Assembly: GCA_027604005.1 (NCBI GenBank)
Contig: JADGJT010000089.1
Span: 3,721 to 67,720, forward strand
Origin: Dinochytrium kinnereticum
Lineage: Eukaryota > Chytridiomycota > Chytridiomycetes > Chytridiales > Chytridiaceae
Length of the DNA: 64,000 bases
Direction of reading: 5' to 3'
Shown here: in pieces, positions 36,444 to 46,066 of the stretch
Layout: the number at the start of each line of letters is the position of its first letter
Position numbering within the stretch: the stretch's first letter is position 1
Program-made: the position numbers and the translations under genes
The notes under the pieces: generated by a model
Seen by the model: the letters and a program-made list of their open reading frames with translations, nothing else
Databases searched by the model: none
What the model was told of the DNA's origin: nothing

Positions 36444-37044
36444 GGCGGTGATGTAGAGAGTGATCCTTGCGGCGGTATGATCGATACCCTTGCACCCATT
36501 GGATGCGTGTTCTGGGCATTTTTCCAGCAGCAGCGGCAGTTCAAAAAAACAGAAGCGAAGAAAAAAAAAACAAAACAGCATCCGCCGGTTGCACAACGCA
36601 GTTTCAAGGCCCGCTTGGTGAGAGCTCGGCTGGGGAGGAACAAACGTTTTTCTCATTGCACAGCACATTCCATTGCCCCTCTCATCATCCCACATCGACT
36701 TGGACGCCGCCATCGACTCTAGCTCCCAGCCTCGTTATCTCTTCAGTTCTCTGCACGGAGTCCTTTGTGCCGTGAGCAGCAACACACGAAACACGGCCTA
36801 GTGGTGCTTTCGTCCAACCCCCTCACAAACATTATCGAAGCGACCACTGTCGTTATTCACAGTGTTGGAGTGCATGCTAGTTGAGGGTAGGCCAATGTTC
36901 TAACACCTTGGTCTAACTAATAATGATTAGCTTGCTAAACGAGATTGGCCGTCTTACCGTCCGATATCGGACATACTTCGATACTATCGTCAAAGAAGCT
37001 CGCTCCTTTTGGAACAGATCCTTGAATTGCTTAGATTCTTTGAG
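36444..37044 (+). promoter_or_regulatory. Cyclin upstream region with likely 5' UTR intron
   Basis: Spacer between polymerase eta and the cyclin. A good intron pattern lies at 36887-36930 (GTAGGC donor, CTAACTAAT branch site, GATTAG acceptor), before any coding ATG. A short upstream ATG at 36874 would read MLVEAC and stop after splicing. The long minus-strand frame here is judged a shadow. Confidence 0.45.
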
Positions 37045-38676
37045 ATGGCGGCCACCTTCATGACATCCTATCGCAACCACTTTGCGGTTCCTCAGTCCCT
37101 TGCCTCAGCCATTCCCGCATCGATTGACCCCACTTTGTCTGCGGTTTTAGGGCAGCGCAGCCAGGCAGTCCGGCCTCAAGTGGCATCCATTAGCTCTTTG
37201 ACACCCTCGGAGGACGTTATGTACTCAGCATCTGTCATGGCAGTCCCGCACAGACCTAGTCATGTCTTAACTCATGAACAACAGCACCATCATCAACAAT
37301 CTCACACCAAGCTGAAGGGCATACATCAAGGCACCAATTTAAATACATCCCGCCCAGGATACCATCAGCCCACGCTTCCCCCGACTGCATATGACCCAAG
37401 ACGAGGAAACTCTGCATATTCGCTCATGCCTTCCCAGATGCAATCTTTTGCCCCCGCCAACCTAATCCCAAATTCTTCTTTACCCTCGCTCTACTCCCAA
37501 CCGGCGAAGCTCCCCGCAAACTCCTTCCGGTACACCTCTTCCCAAATGCAGGCACATCAAAGCGACTATTCTTTGCTAGAAGCTTTTGAGGACACTGCAG
37601 AATCTTCAGAAGCCGATGAGTACGGACACGAGATTATGGAATTCATGCGATCAATGGAGGTAATTATCACTACCTCATTTACAGGGCTAATTGACAACAG
37701 AGTATTACCTTGCCCGACCCTCATTATATGGATACGCAGTCTGATATTTCATGGAGGTTGCGGAAGACATTGATCCTATGGCTTGTCGAGATTCATGGTG
37801 AATACGATCTTAGACCAGAAACGTTATACCTTGCGGTGAACTTTGTCGATAGACTTTGTTCCAAAAAATTCGTTTCTCGGGCTAATTACCAACTCCTTGG
37901 GATAACTGCCCTATGGGTCGCTGCGAAGTATGAGGAAAACCACGGCAAGGTTCCCACTTTAAAGAACCTGATCTACATATGCTGCAATAGCTACACTGAG
38001 CGCGACTATATAGCTATGGAGCAAGAGTTACTGAGTCACCTCGGCTTTGTCCTTGGTCACCCCACGGCCGAGTCTTTCCTTAAATCTGAGTTTAAGTTCT
38101 CGAAAGAGGTCGCGCCGGAAAGCCGCGCTATTTCTCGATACATTATGGAGCTCACCCTCGTTCACCGAAGGTTTTTAAACTATCGCCCAAGCCAGGTTGC
38201 CAAGGCGTGCTTCTATGTCAGCGAATGGCTAATATCGGGGAGAAGATTTGGTCCTCAGTTGGACCAGAATCTAGAAAAATGTATTTTCGACGTCCTAGAC
38301 TCGCTTCGACACAACCCCCCTAAGCCAATGGCGACTAAATTCGCCTCCTCGAAATTTCTAAAGGCTAGCCACCTTTTGAGAAGTTTGCTAGACATGCAGT
38401 AAGCTACCTGATTCTGATTTCAGTTTTCACCAATACTTTCTTCTTTGGTTCAGCTCAGATAGGACAGTTGATGAATTGGTTTCGTACATTTTTGGTCACC
38501 CCCCTTACCCGGGTGGATTGGCGCATCTTTACCACCAAGAGCTTCCTTCAGGCCTGCTCACTCCCCCAAAGGAGATACCAAACGTTCGTTGGATTGCTGG
38601 TGTCGAGGCAGACAAGAATTCCTCACATTCTTTTAATTATCGATCATGGAACTCAGAGGTTTCATACGCTCTTTAA
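37045..38676 (+). CDS. Cyclin (G1/mitotic type, cyclin-box protein)
   Basis: Start MAATFMTSYRNHFAVPQ at the first ATG. About 210 residues of Ser/Pro/Gln/His-rich sequence lead to DEYGHEIMEFMRSME and, after an intron near 37662, the cyclin box. This box shows MDTQSDISWRLRKTLILWLV, LYLAVNFVDRLCSKKFVSRA, LLGITALWVAAKYEENHGKV and MEQELLSHLGFVLGHPTAES, including the conserved Arg, Lys and Glu positions for CDK contact. The second box helix set follows (YIMELTLVHRRFLNYRPSQV; AKACFYVSEWLISGR). A last intron (38398-38451) joins LLDMH to SDRTVDELVSYI, ending VSYAL. Fungal CLN and CLB cyclins are not easily told apart by eye; A/B- or CLN-type is likely, and I give no symbol. No destruction box was identified. 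Confidence 0.85.
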
Positions 38677-38821: not shown

Positions 38822-41800
38822 ATGATTGATGATCTACTACGAATTTGCGTAGAAGAGGTCGCCCTTGAGGGTGAAAATGGTTAGAAGCTGATCATCATAA
38901 CTCAATATCTTGACGTGTATCCTAGGGTGTTCAATCTCGCGCCTGTGGGAGGTTTTGGATTTGAGATTGGAGGAAATACGATCACTTTTGCCTAAGGCTT
39001 CGACGGAGTCCGAGGTGGCAGCGAATGCATTCTCATCTGAGTTGAATATGGAGACGATTGATGACATATGGAGTATGGATATTGATGCAGAATCGTGCCT
39101 AGATCACCTGATGGCAAAGGACGTCATCTCCTCGCAAACTCAAGGCGGATACATGCATTTGGAAACCATTCAAGGTTTGAACTCCATGATATGGATTAAG
39201 CCTAACTCGGTCAAGCAAAAGGGCTTGATCAGAATATGAAAGAGTTCCTCTGGCCCTGGATAGCTCGCCATGTGGACCTCAAGTTTTCTTTGCCCAATGT
39301 TGAGGGGAAAAAGGGGAGGAGTTCCAAAACCCAGGTACCTGTTTACTTTTTATCTGAAGAGCATGCATTTGTGGTTAGCTTGGAACAGCCTCATTCACAA
39401 TTTTAACTTCGCTTTACTATTCTTGCTAAACATCATTTTCTATAATGCGATCGTTCTAAAAGACTGGTCACGAAGCTCTTGCAACTGATTTATTGAACCT
39501 CTCCTATACGGATGCAGTGGAAATGTACGGCGATAGCCTGAATGTTGCTGCATCGGAACAGCAAGTTCGCTCTTGCCTTTTCGGAACTGCTGGGGTGACC
39601 GCAAATCTGATGTTTTCTTCTAACGACTCTGAAGGCCCCACCGAAATTATCGGCTGCTTATCATGCTATTCTTTTGTTTGCCATACGAAGTAGAGGTGCC
39701 GGGGTGACCCAAGCTGATATTGCAAAGGAACTTAATATTGACCCGCGGTAAACATTAGTAGTAGGATTGCTAGCTAACCTTTATGTTCTTAAAAGTACCG
39801 TATTCCATTACTTAAAGACATTATGCGCACGACGATACCTGTAAGGGCTGTTGGAGTGCATTGCTTTTGTTACTAACTTCTCATTAGTACGAAGTTTCCA
39901 ATAGCTCATAATGGAATTCATACGAATCTGCTAGTTCACAGGAAGTTTACTCAAAATAGTCCGATGTATCGTGAATATCTTCGAGCTACAATAGCTGAAC
40001 GATCAACCGCTACAGATGAACACCAAGATTTATTGACACAAATCCATCAAATGTTGGATAGCCCGGCCCTTTACGGCTTCGCCGCTGAGTCTAGCGATAT
40101 CGACATCTCACGCACTGCTGTGTCATATCATGCAGATTTAATTAGACAAAGAGTTATACTTTTGCTTAAAAACGCGAAGAACAACACGATGGTCATATCA
40201 GATCTTAGAGATGCCCTGGTATACAATTTTCATCTATTTCAGGTTTTCTTAACGAATTAAGCTGCGAACGAATTGCTCGAAGTTTGAGAAAAAATGGTTT
40301 AACGGTCAAATTACTCAGCTTGCAAATGCTGGATATATAGAGAAGGTTGCTGCGCCTTATACTGATAAGACACGCGCACGTGTAGTTTTCTGTGCTAGGC
40401 TTCTAAAGCCTTATGTTCCCGTCGGTTTCAGCCGTGGAAACGTGCTTGGCGAGGAAAGAACACCCTCAAACTATCAGTTAAAGCGTCTTGAAACTTCTGA
40501 ACCCCGTATAGGGGAAGGGGGCATTTTGTCGGATCTTCCGTTGGATTATCAAGTTTATAGGTTGATCTGTCTCTCGGGACACCAAGGTGTTACGCGAGCT
40601 ATTCTAGATAAATCTCTAAGCAGCATCGGAAGAGTCATAGAGAAAATTGTAAAGCGTTTGCAGATACCTTTAAGTAAGGATATTCCCGCTCTAGTGAGCT
40701 CAGAAGCCGAATCATCTGGAAGAGAGCGAAGATTTCGATATTTCTCGACGGAAAACTATCAAAGTTTGAAACAAGAAAGAGGAGATGACTTTCCTGTTTC
40801 AATTTCTAGTGCTCTACCATCGTCGACAGAAGAACAACTAGTAGATTTTTCAATCGCAGCTGGTAACTCTTCCCCAGTGGCTTTATCTGCTCCAAGCACT
40901 CCTAGCCGGGCCGAAAACTTTATTCCAACACCGTTACAAGTAACGATAAAGAATGAAACGCGAAGAGTTTCCCAACAGGCGCGAAGGAAGAAGGCACAAC
41001 CAAAAAAGAGGATTGAAGGTAATCTCATTTGGGCTAAACTATATCATCTCATAAATTACTTCAGAGGAATCCGAAGAAGAATTGAGCAGTTGTTCTAGTG
41101 AGGATTCAGTCGAAATCTTGGCTGATAGTTCTGGTAATGACGTTGATGATAGAGTTGTAGACAGTTCCGGAGATGATGAGGTTTCTCGGATTTTGTAGGA
41201 AATATTACTTATAGTTATTAGATCAATGCTATCGTTTGCTCACGCTGTAATACGGATGAGAATGAGGAAGAGCTTCTGCTTTGCGATGCATGCAACTCAG
41301 GCACTCATATTTACTGCCTTGTACCGAAGCTTCCCAAAATACCAGACGGCGATTGGGTAAGACTTTCGGACATAAAAATATTCTAAAATTATGCAGTTTT
41401 GCAGCAGAGCTTGCGAAATGACTGGCAAGTTCAAGAAATCGAAAGGCTTGAAAGCAGAAACTGAAAAGATATCAAAACCCGTCCCAACCCCCGCATCTAA
41501 AAAGATTGGAAATGGTATGCTTCTTTATTGCAACGCGCGTTAAATTTTTTCTCTCTCGCTAGTTGATGCACACAGCGAAGTTTCCGAGTTAAGCCATACA
41601 TTGCAGATAGACACAACTCCAGTTCGTCGGATTCGCAAGAAACAAAAAGGTAGTAAATGCACTATTAACCTCTAAAAATTTTAGTGAATAAGGAGCAACC
41701 TCGGTCATTTACTGCGGAGACGAGAAAGAGGCTCATACTCGGACTTCTGGAGTCCAAAAAGGTCCTTCAAGTAAATCAACATTTGTTTCAGGCCTGTGAC

Positions 41801-44800
41801 AATTTGATTGCCTCGCAGAATCCTGGAGATGGCCCTCGTCACAAAATTGACAAAAAGACTATATTACGCTATGCTCAGGCATTGGAAGAAGAGGGCCTTC
41901 TTAAACAACTTAAAGTCTCGATACCAAAATTAAACGGCGGGCCGAATATAGCTACACTACTCCTAGAACAGAGCCTCAACGCAGAAGATCCCTTCGTTCA
42001 GGAGTTTATCACCAATCTGCGGAATAACGCACTTTTGCCCTACGCCCCATCAAGAAATACGAGAGTATCGTATGAACCAGATCTCAAAGTACTACGACTG
42101 CGGGACTTGCAGATAACTAAGAGCGTACCGTCGCCAGTGAACTATTCTCAGGAAACGGCTACTATATGCGCGGAGGTGCATAACCTCGAAAGTTCACATA
42201 GCTCGAGCATTGAAGTTTTAAGCAATCTCGACTCTCCGTTCGAACTTACAGCACCCCATAATAGCTCTATGACATTAGAAGCCAACGATTCGGTGTCTAC
42301 AGAGGAAGAGACCTTAGGAAGTATTCCGTCCAACCCCGTTCTATCGGTTCTTGCTCAGCGAGTTTACACACCGCAGGATAAAAGGACTTCCCAGCCCAGT
42401 TGGATTCATATTGCACTAAACTACGGCTATGTTCGAGCAGGGATGATAAGAATCAGAACACTTCATGAATGGCTTTTCAGCCTTTGTACCAGGTCTTGCG
42501 AAAAGGAGCCATCGAATGGCACGGACGATTTAATCTTTCGGCTATCAAGCTTATATTTCGACATGTCCCTTGAAGTCTACCTTAAATGCGTAGGCCATTC
42601 GAAACCATCGTCTGACCTAGACGCGTTTATGGAGACAGATACGAATCTATCACTGCCTCTGACTGAGGTCCCGCCCCATATCAGAAAAGACTTCTCAAGT
42701 ATAAGGGTGAAGGATACTATACAGTCATTACTTACCGCCCTCACCTTGTTGAAAATCGTAACCCCGTTGATTGAAGGTGAGCGGACAGACGCCAATAATC
42801 AAGGCGTTTCCCGCGCAACTTCCTTCGCATTGAATCGAAATGTACCTCTGTATGATTACTGCAAACCACATCTGCCTCTTGTTAGGAATTTCGTACTTGA
42901 TTGTGAAGAAGCTATCAAAAATTATTGGACAGAGCTTGAACACATTGCAACCTTTCACCCCAACGCTACGAGAAAGAAAAAAGGCGATAGGATGACTTTG
43001 AGGGGGAACTTACGACACGGTAAGAGTGGAGACATGTTTGCCGATTTTGTTGCCTATATGCTCCATTCAAGAAATTGGCACTTTATGTATTCGTTTACAA
43101 AATCGCAACGCGATGCTCTGGAGCGCCATGTTGATCGACACAGTGGGATAACCCCTATGCATGATAAGGCAGTACTTCAAGAAATACTGCAAGAGACGGG
43201 CCTGAGCATGGCAAAAGTCAAGTTCTTCTTTTACAGGGTAGAGCAGAACTTCCGTCACAGGGTTATCACATTGGATCAAAAAAAGCAGCGAATGTTAGCC
43301 AGGGCTGCAGCAAAAAGAGCCTCGCAAGCACGTCGAAGAGTAGAGAGCAAGTCCCAGAGCAGAGGAACTGAACGAGAAGAGGCTACTGGCACCCCATCGA
43401 CTGCCTTCCCAGCCGAAGACAAGGAAAAGCGCAAAAAAATACAGAAGCGCGTCCGAGCCGCTATCGAGAAGCAAAGCAATAGGGAGGCCGTTGGAAACGA
43501 TACGGCCACGACGGATCCATTTGTCTCTCAGTATGAGCCAAGGAATGTTCGGAAGCCGAACAGTTTCACGCCCGAAGAAGATAATCTTCTTCTCCATGCT
43601 TGTGCAATCATGGAAGCAGCAGCGATAGATCGAGGTGAAGGTGCCCGTATGTCATGGATCCCCGTTGCGGCCTTGATGCAAAAAGACAAAGAGCTATGCA
43701 GGCGACGATTTGATCTGATTATCCGGAATCCTTATTTTAACGGCCGGTTGCTGGGGCTGATAAAGAAATGGCCAGCCGTTATGGCTCAGGGTGTAGAGGA
43801 AGGCGTGGTATCGAAGCTTACAGAAGCTTTTCTTTATAATTTGAAAATTTCGGAGCATGCGAAGTACTACGTAGAATATAGCAAGAGGACAAGTCAGTAA
43901 GTGAAGCATGTTTTTTCTGAAGTAAAACTTATTTTTATAGGCCCGACGAGGTCGAGCTAGATCCATCAGCCCTACAGTTACCTGCATGCCCTAATGAACT
44001 GGAATCACTTTTCGAGATCAAACGATCTGAAGCCGCTTCCCGTCGCATTGGGCTCGATTTCTTTATTGATGATATCAACTCAGGGAGAGGGAGATTGCTG
44101 ATTCTTACGTCACAGTCGTTTTACACCAGCATCGAGGAAGAGGTCGCTCAAATATCTGCTGAATTTACAAGACCATTTTCGCGGGCTGTTGATGAACATA
44201 CATTTTTGGCGCTTTCAAAGGTTGTGAATAGTATTCCTTTTAAATTTTTTTAATGCTAAACGTTTTTTTTTTTGTTCTCGTCGTTGATAGAGCATCCTGA
44301 TGACACCTAGCTTGGAGCACGATCCTAAATATTCGATTGCTTTGATCAATAACTTCTCGAACGACACTACGTCGACTGTTATTCATCAAATTAAGGCGTT
44401 GCCTACGTATGCATTACCTAAAAAAGGAAGCAAAAGCCGGCATTTGCCGGGGCGAAGTTTTCAGCTTTCGGAAAGGTACTTTTTTTCATGGATGTTTATT
44501 CGGTCCAACTCAAGTCCCTAATCACTTAAACAGATTTCGTCATGTATTTGAAGGAAAGTTTCCTGCGAATTTTATTGATGAAGCACATATTGCGATTCAA
44601 AGTTTCTCTATGCATCCAGTTACCGTAATCGAGCGTTTTCCTTCGAACGGATTTGTTTTGGCCGCTTTTGATTTGGCAGTAAGAGGTCGAATAGTCTTAG
44701 AGCCATTAGCTTCCTACTATAAGGCAAACCCTCCCGTCCAGGATGATGGAGGTAACTTCTTTTTTCCTTTTTTCCTTTTCTTTTTTCTGATAAGTGAAGG

Positions 44801-46066
44801 CATTATTTAATTCTCTATTTTTAAGAATTACCTTCACCCATTCAAGTGGTTGTAAAGGACGAGTCTTGTCAGACTTTGAAGCGGAGAGACGATGATTTGC
44901 TGGGCGACTGCGATTCGCATTCTGATGGCAATGCAGTAAAGAGGCAGCGAGTTCCTGATCTTAAGCGTGGAATAACCGAAAATGCTATGGATACCGAGAA
45001 TAACGATATGCAAATTTCAAGCATAGGTATACAGCAGGCGGCATCGAAGCTGGTGCTTGAGGCTGTAAGATCCGCAAGGAGTGAGGGAGTAACATTGGAA
45101 CAACTTCGTGTGAGTACTTATGCAATTGCCTTTGCCCGATCCCTTGCCCTGATTTTATCACTTTTGTTTCAATTTTAGGAAGATAAGGCTTTGGTTCATT
45201 TGGAGGATAAGCTCCTTATGAGAACGGTTAAAGCGCTCACACTCCCAAGCAAGGGATTGCTTTTGAATTCAAACTCTCCGGGGATATGCAAGGTTGGCAT
45301 CAAAGAAGTTTGCTTCGTTTCGGTGGAGCATATCAAGCCCTGGGCTATTGAAAAATTATCTGCGGATAGCAACAAAATTAGACGATCTGGACGAAACCTT
45401 GCGGATGTTCCAAATTCCACGGACGAAGACGATGAAAAAGCTCTGAAGAACGTCATAGGGTTCAATCCTCGGATGTGGGTTGGGGTTTCAGGAAATTTTA
45501 TCGAGGCTGTCTACAAGCAATGCCTCCAACTAGTTATGAGCTGTATTGTGATGAAGCCTGGAATTACTGAGGTTTGTTGGTTTTTTCCACATTCTTTTAA
45601 TGTAGATCTTTTTCTAATCGGCTATTTGCTCTAAAATGGTTAAAAACTGACCTGGGTATATCCAATAGAGATCTTTGATGAAACATGTTGGAGTCGCCAT
45701 GAGCGTCCTTGAGCTTAGCGATATCCTGGAAGATTTGGAGGACTTGGGTCTTTGCAAACGTCGTTGCTATATAATGAAAGAATATCCGCAGAATACCCTC
45801 GCATATCTATTGCGGAGAGCGTCACCTCCGTACAAACCAAAGGCTTTGGAGGAGGACGAGATGGTGGTGGATGAAGATCCACATGGGTTTGGCCAGACTT
45901 TGTTAGAACCTTGCGGTATGTCTTTTGACGGTTTTGTTTGATGATTGCTTATAAAATTGACTTTTTTCCTTTCTCAGATGAGCATACAATTGATCGCAGA
46001 AAATACACAGTCTACTATCCTATGCCAGAATGGCATAAACGTTTGAGCACGAGTACAAAGCCCTGA
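38822..46066 (+). CDS. TFC3: TFIIIC large subunit (tau138/TFC3 type) with internal PHD finger
   Basis: Binds the B box of tRNA genes for RNA polymerase III. Exon 1 starts MIDDLLRICVEEVALEGENG and splices in phase (donor after 38879) to CSISRLWEVLDLRLEEIRSL, the typical tau138 N-terminus. Winged-helix segments follow (GVTQADIAKELN; LPLDYQVYRLICLSGHQGVT), with the family-typical ERRFRYFSTENY. An acidic Ser-rich stretch precedes a PHD finger (exons 41222-41356 and from 41397), then KQKVNKEQPRSF and a long exon (about 41684-43899). That exon has extended winged helices (TAETRKRLILGLLESKKV; IDKKTILRYAQALEEEGL; WIHIALNYGYVRAGMIRIRT), YWTELEHIATFHP, and a SANT-like segment NSFTPEEDNLLLHACAIMEA. The end reads RRKYTVYYPMPEWHKRL. 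About 15-20 exons and about 2,000 residues, long for the family. Confidence 0.85.
41222..41445 (+). other. PHD-finger coding exons inside the TFIIIC gene
   Basis: Translation gives VCSRCNTDENEEELLLCDAC, then NSGTHIYCLVPKLPKIPDGD and WFCSRACEMT. The zinc ligands read Cys-x2-Cys, Cys-x2-Cys, His-x2-Cys, Cys-x3-Cys, a full C4HC3 set, with the conserved Trp before the last Cys pair. Both flanking introns (about 41177-41221 and 41357-41396) are phase 0, so the exon pair joins cleanly to the acidic segment upstream and the winged-helix part downstream. Confidence 0.85.

Follow-up and report, generated by a model that had tools for sequence, protein, structure and literature searches.

The ability of TFIIIC to find its genes in chromatin and to hold on to them is usually credited to DNA contacts and to helper proteins. 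Structurally, the large subunit of yeast TFIIIC, tau138 (Tfc3), contains the winged helices WH1 to WH4 (WH4, residues 334-416), followed by an extended winged helix (eWH, 550-640), all of which lie in the tauB module on the B-box (excerpt of PMC11724288). In human TFIIIC220 (GTF3C1), the long flexible linker between tauA and tauB comes after the eWH (612-714), beyond the position of the domain described here (excerpt of PMC11811891). For the region of that domain, excerpts of both structure papers name only winged helices and the eWH, and the sole occurrence of "PHD" in each refers to a PhD programme. The described links between TFIIIC and chromatin are indirect or enzymatic, namely a histone acetyltransferase activity that has been reported, and partnerships with p300 and remodellers (excerpt of PMC11346459), and TFC3 is tabulated as a histone acetyltransferase (excerpt of PMC5575660).

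We analysed a stretch of 64,000 nucleotides, termed the window, which spans positions 3721-67720 of its contig in the 22.4 Mb genome of Dinochytrium kinnereticum (Chytridiales). The window carries a gene for the TFIIIC large subunit, modelled from the sequence by splicing exons at frame-preserving GT..AG sites, which results in a continuous 20-exon frame with a single terminal stop (Table 1). The protein matches B-block_TFIIIC, DUF7599, PHD, eWH_GTF3C1 and DUF6581 above the Pfam cut-offs, accompanied by helix-turn-helix matches overlapping the B-block, while WH_GTF3C1_N, DUF7647 and DUF7646 stay below them. A B-block winged helix followed by an eWH_GTF3C1, both above the curated cut-offs, identifies it as a TFIIIC large subunit, and its orthology extends over the whole length, by sequence to the fungal homologues P0002-P0005 and fish GTF3C1 (P0056), and by family profile to human GTF3C1. 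The human chain 8CLI_A matches this profile with an E-value of 5e-52 in seven stretches; the one for the eWH starts at human residue 595. A PDB search with the N-terminal 640 residues as a single sequence returned no match. As in yeast tau138/Tfc3 and human TFIIIC220/GTF3C1, the order is WH1, B-block winged helix, eWH and C-terminal DUF6581 region. The label WH4 for DUF7646 is given by position, in comparison with the yeast structure (excerpt of PMC11724288). In the genome, eWH_GTF3C1 has a single match and DUF6581 has two (E<=0.1), all inside this gene, so that no second TFIIIC large subunit was found. The gene encodes an ordinary TFIIIC large subunit, with predicted B-box binding.

Table 1. 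Coordinates of the TFIIIC large-subunit gene and its parts in the window.
Feature	Position	Strand	Evidence and remarks
TFIIIC large-subunit gene (tau138/TFC3/GTF3C1 homologue)	38822..46066	+	20 exons, 2055 aa; phase-consistent exon joining, Pfam, public model
WH_GTF3C1_N-like N-terminal winged helix	38828..38984	+	aa 3-39 spliced; PF23704 25.3 bits, just below cut-off 27
B-block_TFIIIC winged helix	39686..39954	+	aa 204-261 spliced; PF04182 59.6 bits
DUF7599	40147..40432	+	aa 326-406 spliced; PF24538 40.6 bits
DUF7646, probable fourth winged helix (WH4)	40526..40762	+	aa 438-516; PF24657 15.5 bits, below cut-off
Exon 9, acidic Ser-rich stretch before finger	41065..41180	+	sequence, composition
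Intron before finger (GTTTCT..TATTAG)	41181..41221	+	phase 0; in-frame stop if retained
PHD exon 1, first six zinc ligands (predicted), ends at conserved Trp	41222..41356	+	PF00628 39.3 bits unspliced at 41237-41359
Intron inside finger, between Trp and Phe of W-F-C	41357..41396	+	phase 0; in-frame stop if retained
PHD exon 2, last two ligands C-x3-C and basic tail	41397..41514	+	ends in phase 1
PHD finger, first to last Cys codon	41237..41414	+	aa 646-691 spliced; PF00628 36.1 bits on spliced protein
eWH_GTF3C1, extended winged helix	41714..42025	+	aa 764-867; PF24101 44.7 bits
DUF6581, C-terminal part of subunit	43553..44705	+	aa 1377-1703 spliced; PF20222 103.5 bits

The public model P0001 (HDU67_010000, 2001 aa) is 97% identical to ours over residues 1-900 and contains the same acidic exon and both PHD exons, identically joined. 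Three parts of our model are missing from it: 2 residues after exon 2 of the gene, the 29 amino acids of exon 41563-41649 and the 23 amino acids that end exon 44291-44475. The skipped exon 41563-41649 is in frame and directly follows the finger; its omission represents either alternative splicing or an annotation miss. Upstream of the TFIIIC gene lies a cyclin gene (about 37044-38676, +). In Phlyctochytrium planicorne a cyclin, 45% identical to that of the window over 210 amino acids, likewise precedes TFIIIC, and the adjacency is a conserved gene order; the cyclin-TFIIIC fusion in the public Phlyctochytrium model is an annotation error.

The PHD finger was first proposed in a first-pass annotation made from the letters alone, and it is real. 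In the spliced protein, residues 646-689 match PF00628 well above its cut-off of 24 bits (E 6.5e-9), and the exon pair scores 42.4 bits, while PHD exon 1 alone ranks fifth of the 20 PHD matches in the unspliced, six-frame translated genome. All eight Cys4-His-Cys3 ligands are present in order, as C-x2-C-x11-C-x2-C-x4-H-x2-C-x14-C-x3-C, which predicts zinc binding. The proposed C4HC3 finger is thus complete in its ligands and departs from the usual form in its last knuckle, which is C-x3-C instead of C-x2-C. This C-x2-C spacing is a habit of the PHD family more than a definition, x3 being a variant spacing. Thirteen of the 19 other PHD matches of the genome are readable whole, and all 13 have an x2 last knuckle. 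Three PHD matches (L001, L004 and L013), among them the highest-scoring one in this genome, are clustered in about 4 kb of contig C95 and perhaps belong to one multi-PHD gene. The acidic Ser-rich segment noted before the finger is likewise present, with 27 Asp, Glu and Ser in the 50 residues preceding the first Cys; the same stretch is weaker in 12 other TFIIIC-finger proteins (13 to 23 of 50). In the acidic Ser-rich exon of the window, at 41080-41180, V-E-I-L with acidic and Ser residues after it resembles a SUMO-interacting motif.

By the domain order of yeast tau138 (excerpt of PMC11724288), the finger is placed in the linker between WH4 and eWH, inside tauB, the predicted B-box-binding module. 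None of the seven aligned stretches of human GTF3C1 (8CLI_A) covers it, in agreement with the initial remark that no such finger is known from the human protein. In principle, a PHD finger could come to lie beside TFIIIC because there are two genes, or through an assembly join or an artefact of splicing, and the GTTTCT donor ahead of the finger is not textbook; its score, however, and those of the other splice sites of the two finger introns fall in the range seen for the other introns of the gene. The junctions had been described as phase 0, which holds for the upstream junction and the intra-finger intron, while the downstream end of PHD exon 2 is in phase 1. One phase-consistent frame nevertheless runs through all 20 exons, with TFIIIC domains on both sides of the finger, and the same fusion appears in the public model and in the separate genomes of eight other genera. 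With the sole genomic eWH match also inside the gene, we reject two genes or an assembly error, and to this explanation, a splicing artefact included, we assign a negligible probability.

Relatives with and without the finger were collected by three protein searches, which returned at least 97, 17 and at least 57 proteins; scoring was limited to candidates sharing exact words, and further genera are possible. BAZ2, KDM5, CHD4 and other PHD-only proteins, 91 from the first search and 6 from the third, were removed, leaving 66 different TFIIIC-like proteins. Among the matches listed, a pattern scan finds the finger complete in 12, partial in 2 and absent in 52, and all 14 bearers belong to Chytridiomycota or to Basidiobolus. 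They comprise Dinochytrium, Zopfochytrium and Phlyctochytrium (partial) of the Chytridiales; Rhizophlyctis and Borealophlyctis of the Rhizophlyctidales; Spizellomyces, three Geranomyces proteins, Fimicolochytrium, Gaertneriomyces and Powellomyces (partial) of the Spizellomycetales; and two Basidiobolus species (Basidiobolomycota). In each of the eight relatives scanned whole with Pfam, one per genus, the PHD follows the B-block and DUF7599 and precedes the eWH; the match of Geranomyces michiganensis, at 24.2 bits, lies just above the cut-off of 24, and Powellomyces has no Pfam PHD match. The finger is a shared feature of a fungal group and not a peculiarity of the Dinochytrium gene, and its absence from close relatives, named at the outset as part of a refuting outcome, is not what is seen.

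The incomplete copies differ in kind. The finger of the Phlyctochytrium model stops right after E-G-S-W, and because this is the place of the intra-finger intron of the window, the missing last ligand pair is probably an annotation slip. Gaertneriomyces (P0124) has a decayed finger with an LYQC core and no acidic pair, and the public model of Powellomyces (P0123) has half a finger; the two possibly represent stages of loss, P0123 alternatively a model error. The 52 proteins without a finger include those of Piromyces (Neocallimastigomycota), Quaeritorhiza, Hyaloraphidium, Allomyces, Blastocladiella, Paraphysoderma, Glomeromycota, Mortierella and its kin, Helicostylum, mushrooms and fish GTF3C1, their absence being that seen in public gene models. 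In 16 of them the linker can be delimited and holds 0 to 4 Cys. Two are not clean absences, as the model of Chytridium lagenaria (P0003) skips the first half of the eWH and that of Irineochytrium (P0157) leaves out the region. As 52 of 66 TFIIIC-like proteins among the matches listed do without it, the finger is dispensable in principle.

Between genera, the finger is better conserved than its surroundings, with 48-61% identity compared to 16-33% in the flanks (seven comparisons). Within genera it is little better kept than the flanks (Geranomyces, 41/46 vs 99/115 upstream; Basidiobolus, 43/46 vs 44/60). The C-x3-C last knuckle recurs in 11 of the 12 complete TFIIIC fingers among the matches listed, Gaertneriomyces having x2. 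With a narrower pattern run over the search matches, at least 96 non-TFIIIC fingers, most of them near-copies of BAZ2, all have x2, and at least 8 TFIIIC fingers all have x3. In a tree of 34 fingers (54 columns), 11 of the 12 TFIIIC fingers group together (SH-aLRT 91), with Gaertneriomyces on a long branch outside this group; constraining all 12 to one group gives a higher likelihood and is not rejected (p-AU 0.676).

The rest of the protein follows a different grouping. In its tree (32 rows, quick search; the rows of Helicostylum, Hyaloraphidium, Piromyces and fish drew long-branch warnings), Basidiobolus joins Glomeromycota (SH-aLRT 100), apart from the chytrids. Fingers that group together despite this placement fit one old origin followed by repeated loss. 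We suggest that fungi gained the finger early in their history, that three orders of chytrids and Basidiobolus have retained it, and that other lineages lost it. A finger that is not ancestral, having arisen in chytrids and passed to Basidiobolus by domain transfer, or having been gained twice from similar PHD donors, would agree with the position of Basidiobolus beside finger-less Glomeromycota, and the presence and absence of the finger on this tree need at least 3 changes, among which gain and loss look alike. We regard such a late origin as unlikely, since the fingers share the linker and the C-x3-C knuckle besides grouping together, and since losses are plausible: the Gaertneriomyces copy is decayed, and Quaeritorhiza is finger-less although it lies inside a finger-bearing clade.

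The solved fingers nearest in sequence are those of BAZ2A and BAZ2B, followed by Lid/KDM5 PHD1, CHD4 and WSTF, and BAZ2A/B are also the best PDB match to the family profile of the finger (E 2.5e-19). The window finger shares with BAZ2A (TIP5) and BAZ2B an acidic pair (here Glu-Glu), the LLLCD core, Gly at His-2 and G-D-W-F-C, and has in common with human BAZ2A an Asn four residues before the first Cys. It resembles PHD1 of KDM5A/B/C and fly Lid in the LLLCD core, the acidic pair and G-x-W, but in the KDM5 fingers the second residue before the first Cys is aromatic and the fourth is Asp, where the window has Ile and Asn. Unlike the window finger, those of BAZ2A/B and KDM5 PHD1 have an x2 last knuckle, and their hosts are, respectively, a bromodomain-bearing remodeller subunit rather than a Pol III factor, and a demethylase.

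For the helical, unmodified H3 tail, the BAZ2A finger has a Kd of 48 micromolar, and binding is weakened 17-fold when the acidic pair is neutralised (excerpt of PMC5415848). PHD1 of KDM5B binds H3K4me0, using Asp 328 for H3 R2 and Trp 351 for A1 (excerpt of PMC4225485); by our own count, these two residues correspond to the Asp after the third ligand and the Trp of G-D-W, both present in the window finger. The acidic wall, defined as Asp or Glu at the position of BAZ2A E1689 (C3-5), is Glu in the window finger and occurs in 6 of 13 TFIIIC fingers; of these 13, 11 have an acidic residue at C3-6 and 9 have Asp after the third ligand, and the fingers of Rhizophlyctis and Gaertneriomyces have neither acidic residue. 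Reading of the H3 tail by the window finger is a reasonable inference from these residues, which point to H3K4me0 rather than H3K4me3. Many PHD fingers do recognise H3K4me3 (excerpt of PMC10124903), and the finger would then read a mark of active promoters. Trp at His-2, part of the methyl-lysine cage of H3K4me3 readers, is however present in none of the 13 TFIIIC fingers, and the acidic wall of the window finger is mostly exclusive of that Trp, which only 5 of 36 human walled fingers have (excerpt of PMC5415848). We consider H3K4me3 reading very improbable.

A more serious alternative is that the finger is real and reads no histone, acting as a zinc-stabilised module that contacts another TFIIIC subunit, a remodeller or TFIIIA, or that positions the eWH. 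Some PHD fingers have other targets (excerpt of PMC10124903), the H3-contact residues vary, the acidic wall and the Asp after the third ligand among them, and the longer last knuckle is specific to TFIIIC fingers. Besides this knuckle, one residue longer than in the solved relatives, and the patchy acidic wall, the decayed Gaertneriomyces finger, the partial Powellomyces finger and the weak contrast within genera count against H3K4me0 reading. The acidic residue ahead of the wall is nevertheless nearly general, the cage Trp is uniformly missing, the best PDB profile matches are fingers that bind H3 tails, and the window copy has every contact residue looked at. Such a module appears to us the less likely function, though one that retains some weight. 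As the contact residues vary across the 13 TFIIIC fingers, we predict with moderate confidence that the window protein binds H3K4me0, and differences between genera are to be expected.

On balance, we think it probable that the gene encodes a TFIIIC large subunit whose WH4-eWH linker holds an early-acquired, repeatedly lost PHD finger that serves as a tether by binding the K4-unmethylated N-terminus of H3. The most likely job of the finger would be to bind this terminus as BAZ2A/B and KDM5 PHD1 do. As the finger adjoins the B-box-gripping eWH, a weak chromatin contact, in the range of tens of micromolar if it is like BAZ2A, would be added to strong DNA recognition. This contact would keep TFIIIC in place on those tRNA genes, and perhaps those stand-alone B-box sites, whose neighbouring nucleosomes are free of H3K4 methylation. 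More tentatively, a single subunit of early fungal TFIIIC might have read both the unmethylated H3 tail and the B-box, a sensor that chytrids and Basidiobolus would have kept.

A literature search over titles and abstract openings, mostly of papers outside subscription journals, found no report of a PHD finger in TFIIIC among the matches listed. Precomputed public Pfam lists carry PF00628 for 11 of the 66 TFIIIC-like proteins among the matches listed, which means that the domain pairing is already in databases. The search gave no report of the pairing or of its conservation, though the pairing sits silently in public annotation. The PHD finger is probably the reason why one Geranomyces TFIIIC large subunit (P0105) bears the public name "Methyl-CpG-binding domain-containing protein 9".

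The TFIIIC architectures of yeast and human are not representative of all fungi. If the Pol III systems of these two, the best studied, are without the finger, direct reading of histones by a general Pol III factor would have escaped notice. The presence of a histone-reader-type finger in the B-box module of several chytrid orders and Basidiobolus makes histone-tail reading by such a factor directly testable, and species with the finger, with a decayed finger and without it provide a natural comparison. If histone binding holds true, the finger could enable the large subunit that locates tRNA genes to sense both chromatin and DNA.
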